From NCBI GenBank assembly GCA_030532905.1, contig JAUNKE010000011.1, positions 1 to 45,182 of the forward strand: 45,182 nt of DNA, in the 5' to 3' direction. Source of the DNA: Peptostreptococcaceae bacterium. Its GTDB lineage: Bacteria > Bacillota > Clostridia > Peptostreptococcales > Filifactoraceae. Made by a program: the position numbers and the translations under genes. The notes under the pieces were generated by a model. The model was given only the letters and a program-made list of their open reading frames with translations, made no database searches and was not told the origin of the DNA. Shown here in pieces: positions 25,451 to 39,610 of the stretch (positions within the stretch are counted from its first letter, which is position 1; every line of letters starts with the position of its first letter).

Positions 25451-25918
25451 ATTGGATGTTTTATTAAGCTGAATAGAAAAAATTTTGTTGCCGTCAAAAA
25501 ATTTTTGATGGCAACAAATGTATTGAAATCTAATTCGAATAGGAATATTTGATATCAATGCTTTGTGAGATTATTGCAGTGAAACCGTCTTATTTTATAG
25601 AGAAACAATAATCGAAATGAGTAAAAACTTGAACCGCAATTATAAAGTGGTTACAGACTGACGCTTTAATGATTTGATTTGTAGAAAAATAATTTTATTC
25701 TTTTCGTTTATCGTGATGTTTAACGCTCCAAAGGAATGGGTAATATGGATATCGAGCGGGAAAACTTTGGAAAAACTGTGGGAAAGGTTACAAAAGTTAC
25801 AAAGTGGATCCGTCATTACTTTCCTTTATTTATTAAGAGCGATTGTGTGTTTTCAAAGGTGAAAGTAATGAACAAGGCGATATTAGAAGCCTACGATTAG
25901 TTGCATACAGGGGGAAAC
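25451..25918. other. Leader/intergenic region upstream of the pilus cluster
   Basis: This 468-nt gap has no supported gene. A 62-codon frame at 25674-25862 starts with TTG and is not convincing. It holds the hairpin at 25484-25518, a possible promoter (TTGCAG near 25576 with TATAGA 16 nt on) and short AT-rich repeats such as TTACAAAAGTTACAAA near 25789. The length suggests a long regulatory leader for pilB, but I do not recognise a known riboswitch in it. Confidence 0.4.
25484..25518. terminator. Long hairpin after asnS
   Basis: A 17-nt arm at 25484-25500 pairs with 25502-25518, with a single G-T wobble; the centre is AAAAATTTTT. There is no T run on the plus side. On the minus strand the stem is followed by a T-rich stretch. 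It most likely ends or protects the asnS transcript. Confidence 0.5.
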
Positions 25919-27595
25919 ATGAGAAAGAAGCAAAGGCTTGGCGACATACTTGTAAATCACAATATGATAACACCGGAGCAACTGGAGAAGGCTTTAGCAG
26001 CACAAAAAGAATCAAAGAAAAAATTGGGTGAGGTTCTAATAGATTTAGGAATTATTGATGAGAATATTATATTGAAAACTTTGGAAGCCCAATTAAAGAT
26101 TCCTTATATTAACTTGAACGAATATATTATCAATCCGAATGCGGTCAAAATTATTTCTGAAAATATTGCCCGAAGATATAATATTATTCCCTTGAATGTG
26201 GAAGATGGAAAGATTCTACTTTCGATGTCCGACCCGCTGGATGTATTGGCGGTGGATGATGTTCAGGTTATCACCGGTTTGAGTGTTAAAGTGGTTATCA
26301 GTTCAAAATCGGATATCCAAAAGGCAATCAGCAAGTATTTTGATTCTTCGGAGAGTGCGCAAGAGGCTGTCAAAGAATTTGACTCTCAATTTCGTGAAAT
26401 TGAAGAAGACCAGGATGAAGAGGCGGATGATGTAGCCAATGCACCGATTGTACGACTTGTCAATTCGATGATATCACAGGCAGCAAGACTAAGAGCCAGC
26501 GATATTCATATTGAGCCGTTCGAAGATATGGTTCGGATTCGATTTAGAATTGACGGTGAGCTTGTGGAAAATATGGTTCTTCCTAGGAAAACTCACTCAG
26601 CATTAATCACCAGAATTAAAATTATCGGTAAGTTGGATATTGCGGAGCGAAGAATACCGCAGGACGGTCGTGTTGAAACGGTGGTGGATAGAATTCCAAT
26701 CGACTTGCGTATTTCCATCCTGCCGACAGTTTACGGTGAAAAAGTCGTAATGCGTTTGCTTTTCAGAAATGCAATTTCCGTTACGAAAGAACAACTTGGA
26801 TTTACCGCATACAACTTGGAACTTTTTGATAAAATCATCAAAGCGCCGGAAGGAATCATACTGGTTACCGGCCCAACGGGTTCCGGTAAATCCACAACAT
26901 TATATACAGTATTAAGAGAGTTAAATGATATTAAGAAAAATATTATAACAATAGAGGATCCTGTCGAATATAGACTTGAAGGGATAAATCAGGTACAGGT
27001 TAATACGAAAGCGGGTCTTACTTTTGCATCCGGATTGCGCTCAGTTCTTCGTCAAGACCCCGACATTGTCATGGTCGGTGAGATTCGAGATGCGGAGACG
27101 GCACAGATTGCAACAAGAGCCGCGATAACAGGTCACTTGGTTTTATCTACACTTCATACCAATGACACGGCGAGTACCATTTCGCGTTTTATCGACATGG
27201 GAGTCGAGTCCTACATGGTTTCTTCATCCGTAATCGGAGTTATCGCACAGCGATTGGTACGAAGAATTTGTACACGCTGTAAAGAAGTTCATGAGCTTAC
27301 CGATGAAGAAAAATTGATAACCAAAGACTTGGGAGTAAATGTTGCTTATAAAGGAAAAGGTTGTAATTACTGTTCCGGTTCGGGTTATGCAGGACGAATT
27401 GCGATTCATGAAATATTAGTAATGGACAGAGACATCCGTCGCATGATAGACAGAGGAAATGCAATTGACGAAATCAAAGAAGAAGCGATAAAAAAAGGAA
27501 TGAAGACTCTTAACAAAACCTGTGTAGATTTAATAAATGAGGGAATTACGACTATTGATGAGATGTTAAAAATAACTTATAGTGTTGACCAATAG
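25919..27595 (+). CDS. pilB: Type IV pilus assembly (extension) ATPase PilB
   Basis: PilB is the cytoplasmic hexameric ATPase that powers pilus polymerisation through PilC. The 558-residue protein has two MshEN-like motifs at residues 6-29 and 35-58. The T2SSE core follows, with Walker A GPTGSGKST near 320, an Asp box, Walker B VMVGEIRD and the His box LVLSTLHTNDTA. A zinc-binding tetra-cysteine site is formed by C451, C454, C482 and C485. I chose the ATG at 25919 after CAGGGGG; the frame could extend 6 codons. It opens the pilus cluster, and pilT follows after 8 nt. The motif repeats suggest control by cyclic di-GMP. Confidence 0.95.
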   Translation: MRKKQRLGDILVNHNMITPEQLEKALAAQKESKKKLGEVLIDLGIIDENIILKTLEAQLKIPYINLNEYIINPNAVKIISENIARRYNIIPLNVEDGKILLSMSDPLDVLAVDDVQVITGLSVKVVISSKSDIQKAISKYFDSSESAQEAVKEFDSQFREIEEDQDEEADDVANAPIVRLVNSMISQAARLRASDIHIEPFEDMVRIRFRIDGELVENMVLPRKTHSALITRIKIIGKLDIAERRIPQDGRVETVVDRIPIDLRISILPTVYGEKVVMRLLFRNAISVTKEQLGFTAYNLELFDKIIKAPEGIILVTGPTGSGKSTTLYTVLRELNDIKKNIITIEDPVEYRLEGINQVQVNTKAGLTFASGLRSVLRQDPDIVMVGEIRDAETAQIATRAAITGHLVLSTLHTNDTASTISRFIDMGVESYMVSSSVIGVIAQRLVRRICTRCKEVHELTDEEKLITKDLGVNVAYKGKGCNYCSGSGYAGRIAIHEILVMDRDIRRMIDRGNAIDEIKEEAIKKGMKTLNKTCVDLINEGITTIDEMLKITYSVDQ

Positions 27596-27603
27596 GAGAA
27601 GAA

Positions 27604-28665
27604 ATGAGAAAAATTGATACTGTATTAGACATAGCTTTTACAGAGGGGGCATCAGATGTTCACATTGCAACTCAAAGTCCGCCTATTATAAGAAAGCATG
27701 GTCGTTTGGAAAAATTACATGCCGAGCCGGTGACGCCGGAACAAAGCTTAGAGATCGTTCGATCCATTTTAGATGACAAGCAATGGGAAGTTTTGAAAAA
27801 TAAGGGACAAGTCGATTTTGCCTACGCTCTCAAGGGGAAAGCTCGATTCAGGGTGAATGCCTATCGACAAAGAGGTTCATACAATCTTGCCTTTCGTTTA
27901 ATCAATGACAAGATTCCATCGATGGAGCAACTGAGATTACCGAGTCTTCTCAAAGACTTATCAATGAAACAAAGAGGATTGATTTTGGTAACCGGACCGA
28001 CCGGTAGCGGTAAATCGACAACCTTGGCTGCAATGGTTGACCACATGAATCGTGTCAGAAATGATCATATTATTACAATTGAAGACCCGATAGAGTATTT
28101 ACATCGTCATGGCAACTGTGTTATCAACCAAAGAGAGCTTGGGGGAGATACATTAACTTTCGATGGAGCGCTTCGCGCAGCACTTCGTCAAGACCCGGAT
28201 GTTATACAGGTCGGAGAGATGCGAGATTTGGAGACGATCGCGACAGCACTCACTGCCGCAGAGACCGGTCACTTGGTAATGTCGACTCTACATACCGTCG
28301 GAGGAGCAAAATCCATCGACCGTATTGTGGATGCCTTTAATGCCGACCAACAAGGTCAGATAAGATTACAGCTTTCGACGGTATTGGAAGCAATTATTTC
28401 ACAGCAGATCATTCCAAGAGCGGATGGAAAAGGTCGTGTGGTGGCATTGGAAATCATGATTGCAACACCGGCTATTAGAAACCTGATAAGAGAGGCGAAG
28501 ACACCTCAGATTCAAACTCAAATTCAGACCGGCTCAAAATTTGGAATGAGAACGATGGATGCTTCATTAATAATGTTATACAGAAATGGAGATATATCGC
28601 TTGAGAATCTCAAACGATATGCAGTAGATCACGAGTATATAAGTAGAGAGATTGGAGTGATTTAA
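27604..28665 (+). CDS. pilT: Type IV pilus retraction ATPase PilT
   Basis: PilT depolymerises pili, enabling twitching motility and DNA uptake. The 353-residue protein has an N-terminal PAS-like domain with the SDVHIATQSPPIIRKHG signature. Walker A GPTGSGKST is near residue 131. DPIEYLHRHGNCVINQRELG follows, then Walker B IQVGEMRD and the His box LVMSTLHTVGGAKSIDRIV. The PilT-specific AIRNLIREAKTPQIQTQIQTG is near the C-terminus. It lacks the zinc cysteines of PilB, as expected. Its stop overlaps the pilC start (TAATG). A retraction motor inside the operon indicates dynamic pili. Confidence 0.96.
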   Translation: MRKIDTVLDIAFTEGASDVHIATQSPPIIRKHGRLEKLHAEPVTPEQSLEIVRSILDDKQWEVLKNKGQVDFAYALKGKARFRVNAYRQRGSYNLAFRLINDKIPSMEQLRLPSLLKDLSMKQRGLILVTGPTGSGKSTTLAAMVDHMNRVRNDHIITIEDPIEYLHRHGNCVINQRELGGDTLTFDGALRAALRQDPDVIQVGEMRDLETIATALTAAETGHLVMSTLHTVGGAKSIDRIVDAFNADQQGQIRLQLSTVLEAIISQQIIPRADGKGRVVALEIMIATPAIRNLIREAKTPQIQTQIQTGSKFGMRTMDASLIMLYRNGDISLENLKRYAVDHEYISREIGVI

Positions 28666-29882
28666 TGCCTAGTTTTAGATATAAAGAAGTCGATGCGAGC
28701 GGTACAACCGCTATAGGAACCGTTGTTGCGGGAAGTAAACAGGAAGTCGTAAGACTTATAAGAGAAAAGGGCAAACGCCCGATAATGATTCAAGAGCTTG
28801 AGGAAAAAAGCAAGGATATCAAGGAACTGGGAATATTTAACAAAAAACCGAATCTGAAGGATATTGCGATTTTTTGTAAACAGCTCAATATCATGTTGGC
28901 GGCAGGTATGCCGATTATCAATGCGCTTGAAGTGCTTGGCGCCCAAACGGAGAATAGAAGACTTCGTGAAGCGTTGATTGATATCTCTTTTGATGTCCAA
29001 AAAGGTACCGTATTCTCAAAATCCATGACAAAGTATGATGACATTTTTCCACCACTTATGATCAATATGGTGGTCGCGGGCGAGTTAACAGGTAAGCTGG
29101 ATGATGTTTTGGGAAAGCTTGCGGTTCACTATGAAAAAGAATATAAAATCAATAACAAAATGAAGTCGGCGATGATTTACCCGGCGGTACTTGCTGTAGT
29201 TTCAGTTGTTGTAGTTACCTTTATATTAGTTAAGGTAATGCCGATGTTTACGGATATGTTTACATCCGCCGGAGTGGAGTTGCCGATTACAACACGGATT
29301 TTGGTTACTATTAGTGAATTTTTACAGAAGAGATGGTATATCGTTTTAATATTCTTCGTTATATCGATATTCTTCGGTAGAAGTTATATAAAGAGTGAAA
29401 ACGGCAAGCGTAATTGGGATATTTTCTTATTGAGAATTCCTAAGATAAGTAAATATATAGCTATTATTGCTACAGCTCGATTCACAAGAACGATGTCTAC
29501 TTTGCTCTCCAGCGGTATTCCAATTATTCAAGCGATGGAATCCGCAGGAAAGGTTACGAATAACACTGTGATTATGGACTCCATGGGTGGAGCGGTGGAA
29601 GATGTTAAAAAAGGTGAGACATTGAGTTCGGTTTTGAGAAGGATTGAGATATTTCCTACGATGATGACATCGATGATTCATATCGGTGAAGAGTCCGGTT
29701 CTATTGAAGACATGCTCTCCAAGACGGCGGACTTCTACGATGAAGAATTTGAAACTGCTATCGCGCGAATGGTAGCGATGGTGGAACCCGCTATGATTAT
29801 TGTGATGGGTACAATCGTCGGATTCATAGTAATATCCATTATGATGCCGATGTTTGAAATGTCAAATGTTGTAGGTGGTTAA
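28665..29882 (+). CDS. pilC: Type IV pilus inner-membrane platform protein PilC
   Basis: PilC is the polytopic platform that couples PilB and PilT to pilin insertion in the cytoplasmic membrane. The 405-residue protein carries two T2SSF domains, at ~65-190 and ~265-395. Typical sequences are FCKQLNIMLAAGMPIINALEVL and FTRTMSTLLSSGIPIIQAMESA. There are hydrophobic segments near 165-190, 220-245 and 370-400. MIHIGEESGSIEDMLSKTADFYDEEFE is the second-domain hallmark. It is translationally coupled to pilT. The major pilin gene follows after 73 nt with its own strong ribosome binding site. Confidence 0.95.
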   Translation: MPSFRYKEVDASGTTAIGTVVAGSKQEVVRLIREKGKRPIMIQELEEKSKDIKELGIFNKKPNLKDIAIFCKQLNIMLAAGMPIINALEVLGAQTENRRLREALIDISFDVQKGTVFSKSMTKYDDIFPPLMINMVVAGELTGKLDDVLGKLAVHYEKEYKINNKMKSAMIYPAVLAVVSVVVVTFILVKVMPMFTDMFTSAGVELPITTRILVTISEFLQKRWYIVLIFFVISIFFGRSYIKSENGKRNWDIFLLRIPKISKYIAIIATARFTRTMSTLLSSGIPIIQAMESAGKVTNNTVIMDSMGGAVEDVKKGETLSSVLRRIEIFPTMMTSMIHIGEESGSIEDMLSKTADFYDEEFETAIARMVAMVEPAMIIVMGTIVGFIVISIMMPMFEMSNVVGG

Positions 29883-29955
29883 TTCGGTTTATCCGGCATT
29901 TGCCGATAAATATATTTCATTATTTTATTTATATTTTATAAGGAGGGTAATTTTT

Positions 29956-30384
29956 ATGAAAAAATTACAAAACAGAAAAGGTTTTACATTGGTAGAACTA
30001 CTAATCGTTATGGCAATCATTGCAATTTTAATTCTTATCGCACTTCCAAGATTTGCACAAAGCACAAGTACTGCAACTTACAGAACTTTGCAAGGTAATG
30101 CGAGAACATTGGCATCTGCTTGCCAGGTTTACTATGCGGACAACAATGCTTGGCCAACAAAAATTTCTGATTTAACTACAGCTTCAAAGTATGCGGATAT
30201 CACAATTTTTGGTGCAGATGGAACTACAAACACTAAGCCAACAGGTGCACAGTACACTATCGGTGGAACTGCAACAGATCAAATAGTTGCGACAATCGTA
30301 TTGGATGCTAAACCTGGTAAAATTGATGCAGCTGATTGGGCTGACGGAACAAAGACTGCTACTGCAAGAGTTGCATTCAAGTAA
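29956..30384 (+). CDS. pilA: Major type IV pilin
   Basis: The 142-residue prepilin has a 9-residue basic leader, cut by PilD between G9 and F10. The mature start FTLVELLIVMAIIAILILIA has the conserved Glu5 and forms the hydrophobic helix packed in the filament core. The globular part is small (133 residues mature), Thr/Ala-rich and has only one cysteine, so no disulfide loop. AGGAGGG precedes the ATG at 29956. Its leading place among the pilins, its compact size and the strong ribosome binding site make it the likely major subunit. A large hairpin separates it from the minor pilins, as expected for a highly produced subunit. Confidence 0.92.
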   Translation: MKKLQNRKGFTLVELLIVMAIIAILILIALPRFAQSTSTATYRTLQGNARTLASACQVYYADNNAWPTKISDLTTASKYADITIFGADGTTNTKPTGAQYTIGGTATDQIVATIVLDAKPGKIDAADWADGTKTATARVAFK

Positions 30385-30393
30385 TTCTAAAAA

Positions 30394-30456
30394 ATGCTAT
30401 AGCTTTTGCTATAGCATAATAAGGCAAACAACTTTGTTTGCCTTATTATGCTATAG
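30394..30456 (+). repeat. Three-armed inverted repeat with two competing hairpins after pilA
   Basis: ATGCTATAGC (30394-30403) can pair with GCTATAGCAT (30408-30417). Alternatively the segment 30409-30429 pairs perfectly over 21 bp with 30436-30456. The middle arm is shared, so only one hairpin forms at a time. Neither stem is followed by a T run, so a classical terminator is unlikely. It may protect the pilA transcript end or act as a processing site. Confidence 0.8.
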
Positions 30457-30490
30457 AAATGTGAATTATTATATAGAGAACGGGGGATTT

Positions 30491-30982
30491 ATGAAGACTT
30501 TTAAGAGAAAAAGAGCCTTTACTTCTATTGAACTGATTGCCGTTTTAGCAATTATGGGAATTATATTGTTAATTGCGATGCCGAAGATGAGCATTTATAT
30601 TGAAACATCAGAACAAACGCAAGTAAAGTACAATCATCAAACATTGATATATTGTATGCGAGAATGGTCATTAAACAATAAAAATAAAAATATTATTCCC
30701 GCCAGTTTCACAGTGAAAAATTCTCAGGGGAAGACCCTTGTCGATTATCTCCAATACTATAATAATGAGTTGTATAAAGATATATTTGAAGGGAAAATAA
30801 CAGCTCCTGTTGTTAAAGAAATTACTAATGGAAAGGTAAGATATTCCGTTAGCGGAGGAATTCTAAAATCCGAATACCTCGTTAAAAATAAAGTTACGAG
30901 TGTTACAACGGCTTATACTTGGACATATAATCCGGTAAGTGCAAAGAGTGATCTTACGGGTTTGACAATTGACAAAAATTAA
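30491..30982 (+). CDS. Minor type IV pilin
   Basis: The 163-residue prepilin has a 9-residue basic leader and the mature start FTSIELIAVLAIMGIILLIA with Glu5, followed by a mixed alpha/beta head. The residue before the cleavage site is Ala (KRA|FTSIE), not the usual Gly; Ala is tolerated by some prepilin peptidases. It has one cysteine. GGGGGA precedes the ATG. The following gene starts 10 nt after its stop. By position it resembles the small minor pilin that accompanies modular pilins in streptococcal pilus loci. I would place it in the initiation/tip complex, which is inference. Confidence 0.8.
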   Translation: MKTFKRKRAFTSIELIAVLAIMGIILLIAMPKMSIYIETSEQTQVKYNHQTLIYCMREWSLNNKNKNIIPASFTVKNSQGKTLVDYLQYYNNELYKDIFEGKITAPVVKEITNGKVRYSVSGGILKSEYLVKNKVTSVTTAYTWTYNPVSAKSDLTGLTIDKN

Positions 30983-30992
30983 GGGGGATTTT

Positions 30993-31586
30993 ATGAGATT
31001 TACCAAAAGAAAAGGTTCGCTGCTTCCTTTAATTGTTGTGATTTCAGTATTTGTTATGTTTGTTGGAGGAGTGGCGATTTCATTAGCAAACTCGGGTCAA
31101 AAAGTTGCCTTTGGAAATTCCGTGAAAATGCAATCATATTATTTATCCAAAGCGGGAATTGAAATGGGATTGGCTTTCTTGTACGCACCGGCAGACCCAA
31201 CCAAGCCGAATGATAATAATTGGTTTGAAATGGGCTCGGCTGATAACTCGGCTTTTACCGTAGCACTTATTAGGAATGCATTATCTACCAGATTGCAACC
31301 TTCCAATGAAGAAAATTTTTCGGTTTATTTGGAATCGACAGGAAAAGGAAATGCGCATGTAGTTACGAAGACCAATATTGTAAAAAAAGGGAATACGGCT
31401 GCGGGAACTTATTTAGGAGATATTAAAGTTAAAATTGAGTTTGTTCAAAATGGAAATAAAAAGGAAGATTGTTATTATAAAATTATTTCAACATCGAAAC
31501 TAAATGATAATGACTCCGTAAACTCGGAGCATATTTTGACTATGGAAGTAAATATATCAAATGAGTTTGATAGAAAATTATATTAG
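30993..31586 (+). CDS. Minor pilin-like protein without Glu5 (PilX/GspK-like)
   Basis: The 197-residue protein has a short basic leader MRFTKRKG and a hydrophobic segment SLLPLIVVISVFVMFVGGVA. It then has an amphipathic helix containing YYLSKAGIEMGLAFLY, the pattern seen in PilX/GspK-type subunits. The mature residue 5 is Leu instead of Glu, and residue 4 is Pro. In type II secretion the tip subunit GspK also lacks Glu5, because nothing sits above it in the filament. The cleavage site would be G8|S9. It lies between the first minor pilin and the vWA pilin, 8 nt before the latter. A tip-capping role is inference. Confidence 0.7.
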   Translation: MRFTKRKGSLLPLIVVISVFVMFVGGVAISLANSGQKVAFGNSVKMQSYYLSKAGIEMGLAFLYAPADPTKPNDNNWFEMGSADNSAFTVALIRNALSTRLQPSNEENFSVYLESTGKGNAHVVTKTNIVKKGNTAAGTYLGDIKVKIEFVQNGNKKEDCYYKIISTSKLNDNDSVNSEHILTMEVNISNEFDRKLY

Positions 31587-31594
31587 GAGGAATC

Positions 31595-33445
31595 ATGCAA
31601 AAAAAATATAAATATAACGGCTTCACTCTGGTTGAAATATTGATTGCAATTGCGATTCTTTCGATTTTGGTAGCTTCTCTGGTTTTTATTATGGGGGATT
31701 CAATCAAAACTCATAAAAACACGAGTGATCTATATACTATTCAGACGAATGTTGTATATACATCCAATTCTTTGAATGAAGCTGTGCGTGAATCTACTGC
31801 AATTTTCGTGCTTGCTGAAAACAAATACAATCCTGCAAATATTACGGAGGATAAAATTGCGGCCGATACATCTACTTTGGGATTGACCGAGCAGTGGAAT
31901 TATATCGGTCCGAATGCTGAAAAAACAAAGATTTACAATTTTGTATGGGATCCTGTAAAAAAGGTTCATATACCATTTGAGTTAACCGTGGGTGAGAATG
32001 TCAAGGGCAAACTATTGACAGATATCAGTACTCTTGCTCCGGGAAAGTACATGGATCCTAAAATCAGATATGGTTTTTCGATTACTGACCAAAAAACTAA
32101 TATCCAAAAGCAGTTGGATTATTACAAAACAAAATCTACTTTAACTGAAGCGGAGAAAAGAGAAGTTAAGCTTCTTAATGAGAGATTATCAGATCAGAGA
32201 AGTGTGTTGAATTATTCAATCGATGGTTATCGTGAACTTATTACAGTAAATACAGATGGAACAAATACGATTGAGAAGGATACGCTGACACAACATATTA
32301 CTAATGCATCCGTAGAAGCTTTAAACACAAAACAAATTATTGATATTTCCGAAGGCAGAACTCCGACGGCTATTGCTTACAGAACTACGCCGATAAAGGA
32401 TATTGAGAAAGCAAAAAAACCTGCGGTAGCTTTGGTACTTGATTTTTCTTCCAGTATGACGGATGATTTGGATGCGTATAATTATCGTTATAAGAATAAT
32501 AAATCGTTGAAAGTATCCGTTCATTGGAGTCATGTAGCATTGGATGCACAGTCTTATCAATGGACTCGTAATGGGCGAGATGTCAAGTATAGAGTGAGCG
32601 ACGGTACCCTATATTATATGAAGAGAACTTGGAATTCGGCAAAGGGCGATTATGATTATTATGCGGAAACCAACGATGGAACCGGTAGAAGACTTTCGCC
32701 GAGCCAACTTGAGCCGATTCCGCAAGACCAACGCCGACTGGCGATATTGAAGCGTCAATATAAAGATCTTGTGAAGCGTTTTGCTGCACTTGGAGATGTT
32801 AATTTATATGTTGTTCCTTTCGCAGAACATGGGGAGAATCCTCGTATATTCCGTAATATATCTCAATCAAACGGAACTTCTTGGGAAGTGGAGCGTGATA
32901 AGTTTATTGCCAATTTGCCTTTTACTTTAACTAGACCGGCAACGGCTACACAAGACCAGAAAAAAGAAAACTTAGCCGCTGAGAATGGAATTGAAAAGAT
33001 GACCTTTGATGATTGGACAAATTATGCTGATGGTGTAAGAATAGGTTTATCTTATTTAGAAAAAGAGAAAAGAACAAATAGCAATCCAAACGGTTATTTA
33101 CTAGTTCTATCAGATGGCCAACCAAACAAACCGGATAGAAATAATCTGAAAGATCCTGTGATTCGAGATAGATTTCCTGGTGCAACCGGAGCTATGACTG
33201 CTATTGATGCTGCCATAAAGAATGCCGGTTATACACCGAAATTAGTTCATTTGATAGGATTTTCAAATGTTGCCGAAGACAATAAGCAATTAGAAAAAAT
33301 TAAAGGATACTTTATTAATTCTACAGGACTGGATAATGCAAAGGTTGTTGTCTATAAAACGGGTACCGATGAAGAACTTGAAAAAGCATTTAAAAAATTT
33401 GTTGAGGATGTTGAGCACGATTTATGGTATTTTAACGGACCATAA
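31595..33445 (+). CDS. Modular type IV pilin with von Willebrand A domain, probable adhesin
   Basis: The 616-residue protein starts as a pilin: 9-residue leader, cut G9|F10, then FTLVEILIAIAILSILVASL with Glu5. A pilin-like region with a charged coiled segment (~165-205) follows. From ~275 to 610 there is a von Willebrand A domain. The MIDAS metal-site residues are D283-S285-S287 in VLDFSSSM, T475 in DWTNYADG and D507 in VLSDGQP. About 90 residues are inserted between the first MIDAS loop and the following helix RLAILKRQYKDLVKRF. The layout matches PilB of Streptococcus sanguinis, a vWA pilin with a role in adhesion. It is 15 nt before the lectin-like pilin gene. Confidence 0.9.
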   Translation: MQKKYKYNGFTLVEILIAIAILSILVASLVFIMGDSIKTHKNTSDLYTIQTNVVYTSNSLNEAVRESTAIFVLAENKYNPANITEDKIAADTSTLGLTEQWNYIGPNAEKTKIYNFVWDPVKKVHIPFELTVGENVKGKLLTDISTLAPGKYMDPKIRYGFSITDQKTNIQKQLDYYKTKSTLTEAEKREVKLLNERLSDQRSVLNYSIDGYRELITVNTDGTNTIEKDTLTQHITNASVEALNTKQIIDISEGRTPTAIAYRTTPIKDIEKAKKPAVALVLDFSSSMTDDLDAYNYRYKNNKSLKVSVHWSHVALDAQSYQWTRNGRDVKYRVSDGTLYYMKRTWNSAKGDYDYYAETNDGTGRRLSPSQLEPIPQDQRRLAILKRQYKDLVKRFAALGDVNLYVVPFAEHGENPRIFRNISQSNGTSWEVERDKFIANLPFTLTRPATATQDQKKENLAAENGIEKMTFDDWTNYADGVRIGLSYLEKEKRTNSNPNGYLLVLSDGQPNKPDRNNLKDPVIRDRFPGATGAMTAIDAAIKNAGYTPKLVHLIGFSNVAEDNKQLEKIKGYFINSTGLDNAKVVVYKTGTDEELEKAFKKFVEDVEHDLWYFNGP

Positions 33446-33460: not shown

Positions 33461-35212
33461 ATGCAAAAAAGAAGAGGTTTCACTCTTAACGAAGCCATTA
33501 TAGCATTAGTTTTGTTTTCGCTTGTTGTGGGTTTTTTTGCTACAATATACTCAGCATCATATAAAACTACAAGACGAAGTAAGAGTGATATTAAACTTAC
33601 TTTTAAGGGGCAAGAACAAGTGGAGCAAGGTTTGGCAAGTCTCTCCGGTGAAGCTCAAAGGTGGGCGGATTACATCAATGCAAAGAAAAGTGACTCAAGT
33701 TTAGTGAAACCTGCTGATTTACAAGAACCGGACACAAAGCTGAATCTATGGGGTGGAGAGGTAAAAGGTTACTCTTATTACCACACTATAAAACCTGATA
33801 AACCAAATGAGCAGGGGTTGACTGCTGATGTATTCAGCTTTGTATATGCAAATGCCAGGCGTCCCGTTATTGCTTCGGTGGCATTTGTCTCTTCGATAAA
33901 ACCTGTTCCTAAGATTATATATCAGCAAAGCTATACAAGTACAAATGATTATTCTTACAAAATTAAAGTTGAAAACAGTGATGTACTATTAAGAGCGGTG
34001 GAGCGTGAATATCTTGGTAAGAAGCATTATGATGTTCAAGGTAAAAAATTTATAAGCAGACCGTATTCGAGTCGTAAATCAGCCGGTGAATTTGAACTTA
34101 CTCCTATATATGCATCACTATTTCCGGAGGCTTACAATATTATTTCGCCAAGGACAGGAAATGTTCTGTTCAAGCAGAATTCCATTCCTAAATTGGAAAG
34201 TGCAGTATCAATAGATATGTCTTCGTTTAAGAAAGATTCTTCGTTTAGTGATGTTGCACTATTAAAAACTGTACAGGCACAATCAATCAATGGATTTATT
34301 TCAGAAGAAATTGTAAATCCATATTCAGTAACTTGGTTAGTAGGCTTACCGGTTGTTGATAATTCCTTAATTGGACATTGGGATGCAAACTTGACTTTTG
34401 AGAGTAAATCTGATGAGAGTGTTGAGCAGTATCTATCCAACCAGGATCTTTCGGGAAAAACCTTAGACAACTTATTAACTGTTGCCGGGTATGCTAATAA
34501 AGATTCAAAGTTGAATGTTGTAGGACATCCTATTTTGAATGTTCGTGACACAAATGGAGATTACAGGCAATTTTCTAATGGAATTGCTATTCCATACTCT
34601 GACAATGCGAATAGCCGATTGCGGGTTGTTCCTTCCGTTACACAAGAACCTATAACTGTTATAATAAGAGCAAAACAATTAAATCCTAGCGGTAATTCTC
34701 CATTATTTTCTTTTAATATGGGGAATGACGGTAATGGAGTAGGAGGTGCTCTCGGTTTCCAATTTTATTTACATCCGAGTGCAACTCAAATTTCATATCG
34801 TTTAGACAGAGGAGCGACAACTCCAAATCCGACTCAAAGAATTATTGATATTCCATCTAACTTAACGGATGTATTCGCATATAACTCTATTACGCAGCAA
34901 GGTGATAGAGAAGGATATGCTATTTATGAGTTACAGATGATTCCAAGGCTTAACGGCTCGAATATAGAATATAATGCATCCGTGTTGGTTAATGGAAAGT
35001 ATAAGTATGATTTGATGTTAGCGGAGTATTTACCGTATAATGCGAGCACAAACGGAATTGAGATAGGATCTAATCTTGAAGTGTCGGATATAATATTATA
35101 TAATCGAATCTTGGCTATTGATGAATCAAAAGAAATTACGAAGTATCTATTGAATAAATATACTGTAGATGATAAAGAGAGAGATACAATTAAAACTAAT
35201 TTAGGATATTAG
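33461..35212 (+). CDS. Modular type IV pilin with lectin/LamG-like C-terminal domain, probable adhesin
   Basis: The 583-residue prepilin has a leader MQKRRG cut before FTLNEAIIALVLFSLVVGFF, with Glu5. The pilin head runs to about residue 290. Residues ~303-570 look like a concanavalin A-like jelly roll. The segment LIGHWDAN resembles the entry strand of LamG repeats. ITVIIRAKQL and LGFQFYLHP are typical inner strands, and VSDIILYNRIL near the end is a hallmark of LamG/lectin folds. It follows the vWA pilin, the same pairing as PilB and PilC of the Streptococcus sanguinis pilus. It probably binds glycans or a host or bacterial surface protein. The ligand cannot be read from the sequence. Confidence 0.85.
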   Translation: MQKRRGFTLNEAIIALVLFSLVVGFFATIYSASYKTTRRSKSDIKLTFKGQEQVEQGLASLSGEAQRWADYINAKKSDSSLVKPADLQEPDTKLNLWGGEVKGYSYYHTIKPDKPNEQGLTADVFSFVYANARRPVIASVAFVSSIKPVPKIIYQQSYTSTNDYSYKIKVENSDVLLRAVEREYLGKKHYDVQGKKFISRPYSSRKSAGEFELTPIYASLFPEAYNIISPRTGNVLFKQNSIPKLESAVSIDMSSFKKDSSFSDVALLKTVQAQSINGFISEEIVNPYSVTWLVGLPVVDNSLIGHWDANLTFESKSDESVEQYLSNQDLSGKTLDNLLTVAGYANKDSKLNVVGHPILNVRDTNGDYRQFSNGIAIPYSDNANSRLRVVPSVTQEPITVIIRAKQLNPSGNSPLFSFNMGNDGNGVGGALGFQFYLHPSATQISYRLDRGATTPNPTQRIIDIPSNLTDVFAYNSITQQGDREGYAIYELQMIPRLNGSNIEYNASVLVNGKYKYDLMLAEYLPYNASTNGIEIGSNLEVSDIILYNRILAIDESKEITKYLLNKYTVDDKERDTIKTNLGY

Positions 35213-35235: not shown

Positions 35236-36426
35236 ATGTTTAAGAAAAAATCTAAAGATGCTAATCCGAACGGTTCCGGAACGAAAACGAAAGGTGAAAG
35301 CAAACCCTTATTTTCTTCAAAAAAAACAACGGTTGCTCGAACTAAAAAAGCAAACAGACCATTGTATAAGAAAAAAGGGAATCGTTTTGTAGCAATGGAT
35401 TTAGGAAACTATGCGATTAAATTTGCAGTTGGAAATCAACAAGGGAACCGGATAAAAGTAGATAAAGTTTTTCGTGCGACTTTACCGGAGCATTTGTATG
35501 TTGACAGTACAATCAATGATGACCGCAAGTTATTGGACATCATAAAATCTGAACTATCTTCTAATGGAGTTAAAGACACAGATATTATCGTTTCGTTTGA
35601 AAGTACATCAATAATTAAGCGTCGTTTAACAGTACCTGCTTTATCAGATGCTGAGACGAAAGACTTAATTGGATTTGAATTGGAAGAATATCTTGGTATT
35701 AATCCCGATGATTATATTATTCAATATAAAATTCTTTCAGAATATGATAGAGAAGGTAAGAAAAGGGATATACAAATCGATGCTGTACCGAAAGCTATCT
35801 CAAAAAAGTTATTTTCTCTTTTGAAGCAAGGTGGATATAATCCGTGTATATTAGGTATTCAGTCGAATTTTATTGAAAATATGACAAACACTTTAGAAAT
35901 CAACGGGAATCGACCACAGTCAGGGAATGCGATAGCGGTAGCTGATATTGGGAATAGCGGAATTGTGGTTAATATTTTCAAAGATGGGAAGAGTGAATTT
36001 AACAGAATTATTCGTTCTACATCATCCTTAAGATATGCACTTATGTCTGAGCTTAGAATGGATGAGAGCACAGCATTATCTACTGTCAGAAGCTACTTTA
36101 ATAAAAGTTTGACTGCTTTTGCCGAGCCTGATTCCAGTGATGAAAAAATACTAAGCACTATGAAATCTTGCATCAATGAATGGTCAACCGAAATTGATAG
36201 GGTTCTTGAATATTATCGTTCGAGAAGTGTTGACAATAAAATCAGTAAATTGTTTATCTATGGTGGAGAAGTCATGATTCCGGAAATGGATCGTTATATT
36301 GAAGGAAGAATTGCAGTTCCTACGGAGATTATACGAAATATAAGCAATCTTGATGTTTCAAAAGATATAAATATAATAGATTTGCCGATTTATGTAAACC
36401 CAATTAGTGCATTGATCAGATCATAG
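35236..36426 (+). CDS. pilM: Type IV pilus assembly protein PilM
   Basis: PilM is an actin-like cytoplasmic protein that binds the N-terminus of PilN and links the machinery to the ATPases. The 396-residue protein has the ATP-binding start FVAMDLGNYAIKFAVG at ~51-66. It continues with VSFESTSIIKRRLTVPALSDAE, IGFELEEYLGINPDDY and a second phosphate site, VADIGNSGIVVNIF. The first ~50 residues are an added Lys/Ser/Thr-rich basic tail not seen in classical PilM, which begins right before the IDIG motif. GAGGGGG supports the start at 35236, so the tail is translated. pilN follows after 10 nt. Confidence 0.92.
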   Translation: MFKKKSKDANPNGSGTKTKGESKPLFSSKKTTVARTKKANRPLYKKKGNRFVAMDLGNYAIKFAVGNQQGNRIKVDKVFRATLPEHLYVDSTINDDRKLLDIIKSELSSNGVKDTDIIVSFESTSIIKRRLTVPALSDAETKDLIGFELEEYLGINPDDYIIQYKILSEYDREGKKRDIQIDAVPKAISKKLFSLLKQGGYNPCILGIQSNFIENMTNTLEINGNRPQSGNAIAVADIGNSGIVVNIFKDGKSEFNRIIRSTSSLRYALMSELRMDESTALSTVRSYFNKSLTAFAEPDSSDEKILSTMKSCINEWSTEIDRVLEYYRSRSVDNKISKLFIYGGEVMIPEMDRYIEGRIAVPTEIIRNISNLDVSKDINIIDLPIYVNPISALIRS

Positions 36427-36436
36427 GAGGTTTAAT

Positions 36437-37006
36437 ATGGAATATAATTTTTTTGAACCCTTTTTAAAGGACTCTAAATCAGAAAAGAAGACTTCTGCTA
36501 AAAGTTCCGGTGGGAATAATTTAATTTATATTGCAGCAATGGTTTTAGTAGTCGGGTTAGTAGGAGCATCTTTTGGATACACCCTTGTTGAAAAAAGTAA
36601 ATTGAACAAAGAAATTGCAGAAATAGATGCTTATTTTGCAGATGAAAGTATTAAAGTTCAAATTGCTGAGGTTGATGCTAAACTTGCGGAGATTGCGGAT
36701 ATAAAATTAAAGCAACAATACCTGCAGTATTTGGAACAGGATATGAAAAATATTGATATCGTAAATGATCGTCTTCTCGATTTTATTAAGAAAGAAGTTG
36801 TAAAGGATTTGACGATCGAAACTTTGAATATTAACAAAGGTAAAGTGGAATTACAAGGTTTATCTTTAAAGAAACTTGGTATTGCACAATTTGAATATGA
36901 TTTGCGTAATAGCGGTAATTTTTATGAAGTGTTTGTACCTTCAATCCAAAAACAAGATTCTTACTTTAAATTTGATATGAATTTTGATACAGTAGTGGGA
37001 GGTTAG
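36437..37006 (+). CDS. pilN: Type IV pilus assembly protein PilN
   Basis: PilN is a bitopic membrane protein that bridges PilM and PilO. The 189-residue protein has a 30-residue cytoplasmic N-terminus with NFFEPFL near the start, then a transmembrane helix (LIYIAAMVLVVGLVGASFGY, ~31-50). A coiled coil (~55-105) and a small ferredoxin-like domain end the protein. The classical PilM-binding INLLP motif is replaced by YNFFEPF, which could serve the same role. Identification rests mainly on position and topology between pilM and pilO, since the family is poorly conserved. The pilO start is 1 nt after its stop. Confidence 0.82.
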   Translation: MEYNFFEPFLKDSKSEKKTSAKSSGGNNLIYIAAMVLVVGLVGASFGYTLVEKSKLNKEIAEIDAYFADESIKVQIAEVDAKLAEIADIKLKQQYLQYLEQDMKNIDIVNDRLLDFIKKEVVKDLTIETLNINKGKVELQGLSLKKLGIAQFEYDLRNSGNFYEVFVPSIQKQDSYFKFDMNFDTVVGG

Positions 37007-37007
37007 T

Positions 37008-38786
37008 ATGAAAGTTAGTACCCGAGAAAAAATGCTCATATCGATTGTTGCTTTGTTGCTATTAGCCGCTCTGTATTTTAATTATTATTTGCTTCCACAA
37101 AAAGAGGAGATCAATTCTTTGCGCGCTGAAAGAGACCAAAAGCAAGAGCGTAAAATAATGATGGAAGAAAAGTTAGCAGATAGTAGAACTTTGGATCAGG
37201 AGTACATTGCATCAAAAAATGGAATTCTAAAAATGTCTAACAAGTTTTTTTCTGAAGTTGAGCAAGAAGAATTTATTCTTCTTATCAACGATTTAGCTGA
37301 TGAAGCGAATGTTGTAGTCAATCAAATTGATTTTGAAGAAACTGCAGGTACTGATGCAATTACAAGTTTTCAAGAAGGTCGCGAAAAATTAGATAAGTAT
37401 ACGGAGTTGATTGCTCAAAATAAAATTAAGGGATATGTAAAAAAGGATCTTGCAGTAATACCGGGAGAGGAAGAGAAAAAAGAAGAAGATTCCGATTCGG
37501 TAAAAGTTTCTTCCAAGATGAAAAAAGCTTCTAAGCTAAGCTCTGAAACGGAACAAAACACAAACCGGGAATCTGAAAATACCGAACCGAACACATCTGA
37601 AAATCCGGATGGTCAAATTCAGGGAGATGAAGCTCAGAACCAGGATACAAATCGAACTCCTGAAAATATTCAGCAGTCGGAAGACCCGAATGCGGTTACC
37701 TATGCAAATAATATTCGTGCTTTAGTTGCAACAGTTCAAATGGACGGTAGTTATGATGAAATTCATGAATTTGTTTCATTAATTGCGCAGAGCGAAAGAA
37801 ATATTATTGTTGAGAATATAAAGATTTCAACTAAAGATAAAGGAACTACTTCTAAATCAAATGTCTCTGAATTGAGAATTGTTTTCTACAAAGTAGTGGG
37901 TTTGGAAGATTATTTCTCTCATAAAGACAGTGTTTTGGTAAACGCGGTGGTAACGAAGTCGCAAAAAGCTTCTCCATTTATGCAATACTCATGGAGCTTT
38001 AAGCCGACATCACCGACATCAAGTGTTGCGACAAATCAATTAGGAAACCAAATTACTTTGCCTCAGCAATCGCAAAGTGTGATTCCTCCATTTGTTGTAT
38101 ATCCTTCGACACCGTCATATTCGACACCGATGCCTGCGCCGACACCTGCACCGGGAGGAACTTATGTACCGTCTACGCCGACACCGAATTCGGTTCCGGG
38201 TGACATGTCTTATACACCGGAGTACGAGCGTCTGTCTTGGGGCGGCTATGTGAAGCGTGATAAGCCGAGTGTTACTCCGAATGTAACACCACAGCTTCCG
38301 GAAGTTGTACCGAGCAATGTTATTCCTTTTGACAACTTGAGCGGATTGAAGCTTCAGTTGAATTCAAACGGAACAAAGAATTCCGGTTCATTAAAACTAT
38401 CCGATAAGAGTGGTTTGAGTAAGGAAGTAATGTCTTTGGATTACCATTTGGGTGAAGTTGGATATTATGGTGCTATTCGAATTGATTTAACAGATAAAAA
38501 TATTAAACTGAACCAAAAGACAACAGATATTATTCTAAAGGTAAAATCTGAGATGATGTCAGGTCATGACATTGGATTGGAAATTTTGGATGCTGACAAT
38601 AACACGCATCGTGTCGTTCTTTATGAAGACATCGACTGGACGGATTGGAAAGATGTTCGCGTTTTGAATCTTCCTAGAATCAGCTATCCGGCAACTGTAA
38701 AGAGTATTTATGTTTCAAGAGTGGAAGATGCAAGAGTTACTGATGCAAAACTATACTTTGATTCATTATCATACACTTATAAGTAA
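37008..38786 (+). CDS. pilO: Enlarged PilO with C-terminal carbohydrate-binding-like domain
   Basis: PilO pairs with PilN in the cytoplasmic membrane and aligns the pilus machine. Here it is 592 residues instead of ~200. A transmembrane helix (~10-30) and coiled coil (~32-60) are followed by the first part of the extracytoplasmic domain. An acidic, Asn/Glu/Ser-rich insertion comes at ~150-228, then the ferredoxin-like core with VQMDGSYDEIHEFVSLIAQSERNIIVENI (~243-271). A Pro/Ser/Thr-rich stalk spans ~333-430. The C-terminal ~155 residues look like a beta-sandwich: LEILDADNNTHRVVLYEDI, WTDWKDVRVLNLP and KLYFDSLSYTY resemble the C-terminal domain of secreted phosphodiester glycosidases. The stalk and domain would face the cell wall. 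A terminator ends the unit. Confidence 0.85.
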   Translation: MKVSTREKMLISIVALLLLAALYFNYYLLPQKEEINSLRAERDQKQERKIMMEEKLADSRTLDQEYIASKNGILKMSNKFFSEVEQEEFILLINDLADEANVVVNQIDFEETAGTDAITSFQEGREKLDKYTELIAQNKIKGYVKKDLAVIPGEEEKKEEDSDSVKVSSKMKKASKLSSETEQNTNRESENTEPNTSENPDGQIQGDEAQNQDTNRTPENIQQSEDPNAVTYANNIRALVATVQMDGSYDEIHEFVSLIAQSERNIIVENIKISTKDKGTTSKSNVSELRIVFYKVVGLEDYFSHKDSVLVNAVVTKSQKASPFMQYSWSFKPTSPTSSVATNQLGNQITLPQQSQSVIPPFVVYPSTPSYSTPMPAPTPAPGGTYVPSTPTPNSVPGDMSYTPEYERLSWGGYVKRDKPSVTPNVTPQLPEVVPSNVIPFDNLSGLKLQLNSNGTKNSGSLKLSDKSGLSKEVMSLDYHLGEVGYYGAIRIDLTDKNIKLNQKTTDIILKVKSEMMSGHDIGLEILDADNNTHRVVLYEDIDWTDWKDVRVLNLPRISYPATVKSIYVSRVEDARVTDAKLYFDSLSYTYK

Positions 38787-38793
38787 GAATAAT

Positions 38794-38819
38794 TAGGGGC
38801 ATTTTGCCCCTATTTTATT
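38794..38819 (+). terminator. Rho-independent terminator after pilO
   Basis: TAGGGGCA (38794-38801) pairs with TGCCCCTA (38805-38812) around TTT, followed by TTTTATTG. It separates pilD from the rest of the cluster by a likely partial stop. Confidence 0.85.
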
Positions 38820-38839
38820 GTATTTTTTAGGGAGGAAGA

Positions 38840-39610
38840 ATGATAGGAGCCATATTTTTTATTTATGGATTATTGTTTGGGAGTTTTTACAATGTGCTCA
38901 TTTACAGACTTCCGTTGGATAAACCCGTCCACAAAGGACGATCCTATTGCCCGAATTGTAACACGAAATTAAAAGCATGGGACTTGATTCCTGTTTTCAG
39001 CTATGTATTTCTGGGAGGAAAGTGTCGCTATTGTAAAAATGAAATATCTTTTCGTTACCCGACAATTGAACTTATAACGGGGGCATTGTTCTTTTTATCG
39101 TATCGCCTTTACGGAGTAAGTCATCAGACCTTTTTATTCATTTCATTCTGGTCGATGCTGCTGATTGTAACGATGATTGACTGGGATCATCTGGTCATAA
39201 TGGATATCGTTTTGGGCGTTTTTTCCATTATCAATTTGGGAATTGTAGCTTTCGGGCTTCGATATGATTGGACGCATTATATCTACGGTGTCGCTATCGG
39301 AATGATTTTTTATTCCATTATCTATTTTGTTTCCAAGATGATTTATAAAAAGGAGGCTTTCGGCTCCGGGGATATTTTTCTGATTGGAGCGATAGGAATT
39401 GTTCTCGGTGGAAAAATGACATTGGTTACTTCGTTGTTGGCATTTTATGTAGCATTGTTTGGGATTTTGATTTTTAGATTGTTTGGCAAGAAAGTAGGGC
39501 GTCAAACTGAAATTCCGTTCGGACCGTCGGTCTGCATCGCCGCATTCGTCATGTCGATTTACGGTGAAGAGATTGTAGCGTTCTTATATCGATTGATGGG
39601 ATATCAGTAA
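38840..39610 (+). CDS. pilD: Prepilin peptidase / N-methyltransferase PilD
   Basis: PilD removes the basic leader of prepilins and methylates the new N-terminus. The 256-residue membrane protein has about eight hydrophobic segments and the N-terminal GSFYNVLIYRLP. A cytoplasmic methyltransferase loop carries two CxxC pairs (YCPNC and CRYC). The two catalytic aspartates of the aspartyl protease site lie in MIDWDHLVI and FGSGDIFLIGAIG. All required residues are present, so it is expected to be a bifunctional enzyme. AGGGAGG precedes the start. It must process the five pilin-like proteins encoded upstream, including one with Ala at -1. Confidence 0.96.
   Translation: MIGAIFFIYGLLFGSFYNVLIYRLPLDKPVHKGRSYCPNCNTKLKAWDLIPVFSYVFLGGKCRYCKNEISFRYPTIELITGALFFLSYRLYGVSHQTFLFISFWSMLLIVTMIDWDHLVIMDIVLGVFSIINLGIVAFGLRYDWTHYIYGVAIGMIFYSIIYFVSKMIYKKEAFGSGDIFLIGAIGIVLGGKMTLVTSLLAFYVALFGILIFRLFGKKVGRQTEIPFGPSVCIAAFVMSIYGEEIVAFLYRLMGYQ

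Follow-up and report, generated by a model that had tools for sequence, protein, structure and literature searches.

A PilB-family pilin with a von Willebrand A domain in a candidate pilus tip cassette of clostridia

Results and discussion

The gene at 31595..33445 (+) of the window, the 45,182-nucleotide stretch of a Peptostreptococcaceae contig (JAUNKE010000011.1) analysed here, encodes a modular prepilin of 616 aa with a von Willebrand A (vWA) domain, which by its sequence is a distant relative of PilB from Streptococcus sanguinis; the family is known, and such a member is to be expected. The gene is the middle one of a PilA-PilB-PilC-like triplet that recurs across clostridia, and this membership of a conserved cassette is absent from the first-pass annotation of the same DNA. 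The best explanation, which I hold to be very probable, is that the protein is a modular minor pilin of the PilB family in a monoderm type IVa pilus, acting as a metal-binding tip adhesin in a PilABC-like complex.

The open reading frame has an AGGAGG site just 5' of its ATG, and the protein starts with MQKKYKYNG followed by FTLVE (in longer form, MQKKYKYNG followed by FTLVEILIAIAIL), a canonical class III signal in which the leader ends at the cleavage residue Gly9 and E14 is Glu5. Pfam recognises it as N_methyl (E=4.2e-8). In an alignment of 22 vWA pilins, taken from 21 genomes and 7 families, E14 is invariant (22/22), which bears out the N-terminal prepilin signal with Glu5 that had been claimed for this protein. 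One of the relatives belongs to the same genus (L009; 41-42% identical, and with an unchanged gene order as far as its contig reaches), and genome searches found members beyond it in further families. No relatives turned up when viral contigs were scanned. One genome (G081) carries two nearby vWA-pilin cassettes (L074, 2440-10680), which differ in their vWA pilins and in their downstream pilins.

The metal site of the vWA domain, the MIDAS, is complete, in agreement with the first-pass annotation. Its first loop, DFSSSM (residues 283-288; 32441..32458, +), holds D283, S285 and S287 and is aligned with DTSGSM of PilB, while T475 is encoded at 33017..33019 (+) and D507 at 33113..33115 (+); each of these five residues is invariant in 22/22 aligned family members, as are N476, D479, G508, W611 and G615-P616. 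D507 is equated with Asp319 of PilB because the residue aligned with it reads A in the structure of the D319A mutant (7ba2; PMC8179133), and mutation of D319 abolishes metal binding in PilB (PMC8179133). Pfam on the window protein alone gives a weak VWA_2 match (E=0.13), probably because an insertion of 92 aa after DFSSSM splits the domain; VWA_2 is found at E<=0.01 in 21 of the 22 family members. I rejected the score of 0.13 by itself as evidence of a vWA domain and used the matches to PilB instead. A single-sequence AlphaFold2 model of the protein, at a pLDDT of 35, was discarded.

A phmmer search of PDB sequences with the window protein puts the PilB structures 7b7p and 7ba2 on top (E=1.9e-14 and 4.9e-14), the third-best match being at E=0.16. 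The alignment spans residues 92-157, 237-304, 467-511 and 542-616 of the window protein. These stretches correspond to a portion of the pilin module, the beginning of the vWA domain, the second loop of the metal site and the C-terminus, where the tail reads DLWYFNGP against DLWFVSGP in PilB. The profile of the vWA-pilin family matches PilB at E=1.2e-71, with other vWA proteins at 4e-8 at best, and its alignment covers positions 48-481 in one stretch. As all MIDAS positions align as well, the proposed match to PilB of S. sanguinis is upheld, and the observation is confirmed as real and far beyond chance. Because the pilin module and the C-terminal tail are homologous too, the likeness to PilB reflects descent and goes beyond architecture. 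This homology, and the match of the neighbouring proteins to PilA and PilC, speaks against a prepilin signal and a vWA domain that were joined independently, with no relation to PilB. Such convergent grafting would have ample precedent, as modular pilins with grafted domains number over 1,200 proteins in 264 architectures (PMC8179133), but the alignments already point to one origin of both pilin modules, and I consider it the least probable of all readings weighed here.

With PilB of S. sanguinis the window protein shares the class III signal with Glu5, the pilin module with a C-terminal vWA domain and full MIDAS, the C-terminal motif, the location in a type IVa pilus locus and the PilA- and PilC-like partners. 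It differs in that its overall identity to PilB is low and it is matched piecewise by phmmer, and it is larger (616 aa vs. about 461 aa for the PilB precursor). RrgA of Streptococcus pneumoniae and SpaC are also vWA pilus adhesins, and RrgA also has arms around its MIDAS, but their pili are sortase-assembled, an unrelated assembly, and the likeness is convergent (PMC8179133). PilC/PilY1 of diderm type IVa pili is a tip-displayed adhesin too, in some cases with a vWA module; unlike the window vWA pilin it is not a pilin and has a beta-propeller domain. A PilY1 search of the genome gave no match, but the control search was equally silent.

The segments flanking the MIDAS are the variable part of the protein, and probably the part that chooses the ligand. 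Here, arm 1 denotes the residues that follow the DxSxS loop and arm 2 those that follow the Asp507 loop, a putative mapping onto the arms of PilB. With boundaries that depend on the alignment, arm 1 (residues 289-380 in the window, 32459..32734, +, from the alignment of relatives) has 92 aa in the window protein, 119 aa in L009 and 8-25 aa in the other 20 relatives, and the segment holding arm 2 has 42, 39 and 52-149 residues, respectively; arm 2 is short in the window protein and a four-stranded sheet in PilB. The greatly enlarged arm 1 together with a short arm 2 is a trait specific to the genus, and one that probably affects ligand choice. The enlarged arm 1 could also shield the MIDAS instead of aiding binding.

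Across the family, aromatic residues make up 17% of the larger arm vs. 9% of the vWA core, in sequences that are related and with boundaries that depend on the alignment, for which reasons the p-value of this comparison calls for caution. Arms that are hypervariable in length and richer in aromatics are as expected for ligand-contact loops and unlike a conserved docking surface, and direct binding to host proteins is reported for PilB, and for its vWA module, in purified form (PMC8179133). Both observations argue against a vWA minor pilin that serves mainly in pilus assembly or in the control of retraction, as a structural or mechanosensing component, with adhesion secondary or absent. This alternative draws on genetics in S. 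sanguinis, in which cells lacking pilB have no pili and the D319A mutant, whose metal site is dead, still makes pili but does not twitch (PMC8179133), and on the W..GP tail, whose invariance in 22/22 members suggests a structural role besides ligand binding. I regard it as unlikely and retain the metal-binding tip adhesin as the preferred explanation.

By its gene content, as reviewed in PMC6916266, the locus is a type IVa pilus operon of the monoderm kind, and a complete one. The order of the genes, all on the forward strand, is: an extension ATPase of the PilB/GspE type, the retraction ATPase PilT and the platform protein (25901..29882, read from translations); two small Glu5 prepilins (29950..30982, from translations and Pfam), the first of which (29950-30384) is the likely major pilin; a Glu5-less prepilin; the vWA pilin; a large modular prepilin; and PilM, PilN, PilO and the prepilin peptidase PilD (35236..39610). 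Pfam recognises PilM, PilN and PilD, and PilO weakly. The gaps flanking the vWA gene measure 8 and 15 bases. The presence of PilT with PilM, PilN and PilO, hallmarks of type IVa pili (PMC6916266), makes it very improbable that the filament capped by the vWA module is a pseudopilus or of the competence type, and not a twitching or adhesion pilus; some ComG and Gsp minor-pilin models do match the N-terminal helix, but these matches are N-terminal only and far below the cut-offs.

Several other features of the operon are recorded here. PilO (37008-38786) has 592 aa with a long C-terminal extension, its C-terminal domain being about 150 aa, and shares 57% overall identity with the L009 protein, which shows a weak likeness to the carbohydrate-binding family CBM_11 (E=0.019). 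Monoderm PilO proteins are oversized, and cell-wall anchoring has been speculated to be their second role (PMC6916266). A hairpin of 10 pairs at 30394-30417, directly behind the gene of the likely major pilin and ahead of those of the minor pilins, might contribute to the surplus of the major pilin over the minor ones, and a two-way terminator-like hairpin lies between pilO and pilD (38794-38812). No known RNA element was detected with Rfam between 25000 and 40000, and promoter-like sites are no more frequent than in shuffled sequences.

In all 22 vWA-pilin loci (21 genomes, 7 families), a small Glu5-less prepilin is encoded directly upstream of the vWA pilin and a large prepilin directly downstream. 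The upstream protein of the window (30993..31586, +) starts with KRKG followed by SLLPLIVV and has, by its translation and the family profile, Ser1, Pro4, no Glu5 and the motif YYLSKAGIE. Ser1, Pro4 and the lack of Glu5 are the oddities of PilA in S. sanguinis (PMC6497953), and the likeness to PilA (7o5y) extends to the matching gene set and to a Y..SG motif after the alpha-1 helix. The upstream family mostly matches PilA in the missing Glu5 alone, Pro4 occurring in a minority.

Similarity of the upstream protein to PilA (7o5y) is detectable only with a family profile (E=0.003). When this profile is compared with the PDB, PilA is the top match, though a weak one (E=0.0027). PilA scores 19.3 bits against the upstream-family profile, versus 8.6 bits for the best of 5000 shuffles, and 4.1 bits against a profile built from ordinary Glu5 prepilins. 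Some ordinary Glu5 prepilins score up to 20.8 bits against the upstream profile, about the level of PilA, which I tentatively attribute to the shared N-terminal helix that is absent from the crystallised PilA chain. PilA has been stated to be without sequence homologues outside S. sanguinis (PMC9934059); contrary to this, the present profile matches suggest that such homologues exist.

The downstream protein, in the position of PilC, is a large modular prepilin of 583 aa (33461..35212, +), which belongs to the cassette family with its pilin and middle part. In the PDB, the downstream-family profile finds PilC of S. sanguinis (7oa7) first (E=1.3e-11), and the window protein joins this family over residues 1-312 (hhalign, E=2.6e-14); searched alone against the PDB it gives no match to PilC, and its C-terminal half is unassigned. 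Like PilC, it is a large modular pilin with Glu5. PilC of S. sanguinis has an Ig-like and a ConA-like lectin module, whereas the C-terminal module of the window protein matched no lectin, and I rejected a reading of the downstream protein as a lectin since this module matches no family or structure. The protein in the PilC position is the variable member of the cassette, with about 380 to 1012 aa in L069-L088; among these downstream pilins Big_2 is found in 7, Big_4 in 7 (both Ig-like), Laminin_G_3 in 3 and Listeria-Bacteroides repeats in 1.

The function of PilB has been described in PMC8179133 and the PilABC tip in PMC9934059 and PMC10628169. From homology to PilB, 'metal-dependent tip adhesin' is the best inference for the window protein (PMC8179133, PMC9934059); metal binding, tip location, adhesion, ligand and force are all read across from homologues, the sequence itself providing the parts. 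PilD, encoded in the same operon, should cleave the vWA prepilin after Gly9, as one of three prepilins that it would process. The hydrophobic alpha-1 helix with Glu5 would let the pilin module pack into the pilus, with the vWA module and its complete MIDAS following the pilin module. By analogy with S. sanguinis, the three minor pilins would form a tip complex (PMC9934059, PMC10628169) in which the Glu5-less pilin would occupy the apex, with both modular pilins capping the tip, the only place where the bulky vWA module could be displayed. The MIDAS would bind Mg2+ or Mn2+ and, together with the flanking arms, grip a protein ligand (PMC8179133), which retraction by PilT would then pull, as proposed from S. 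sanguinis.

Conclusion

In the open-access literature that was searched, the PilB adhesin and the PilABC tip have been studied in one species, S. sanguinis; a description of the clostridial cassette elsewhere is possible. I find it fairly likely that PilA-PilB-PilC, rather than being peculiar to streptococci, is one instance of a tip cassette widespread among clostridia, in which a small Glu5-less pilin and a vWA pilin are joined by a modular pilin of variable make-up, that PilA is part of a broad family marked by a YYxAxSG-like motif, and that the range of ligands evolves by enlarging either arm around an unchanging MIDAS. PilA would gain a possible sequence family, and it is this family and the conserved cassette that seem worth the attention of specialists. 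The occurrence of the triplet in 21 genomes from 7 families suggests that the tip model from S. sanguinis may be tested as a general clostridial one.
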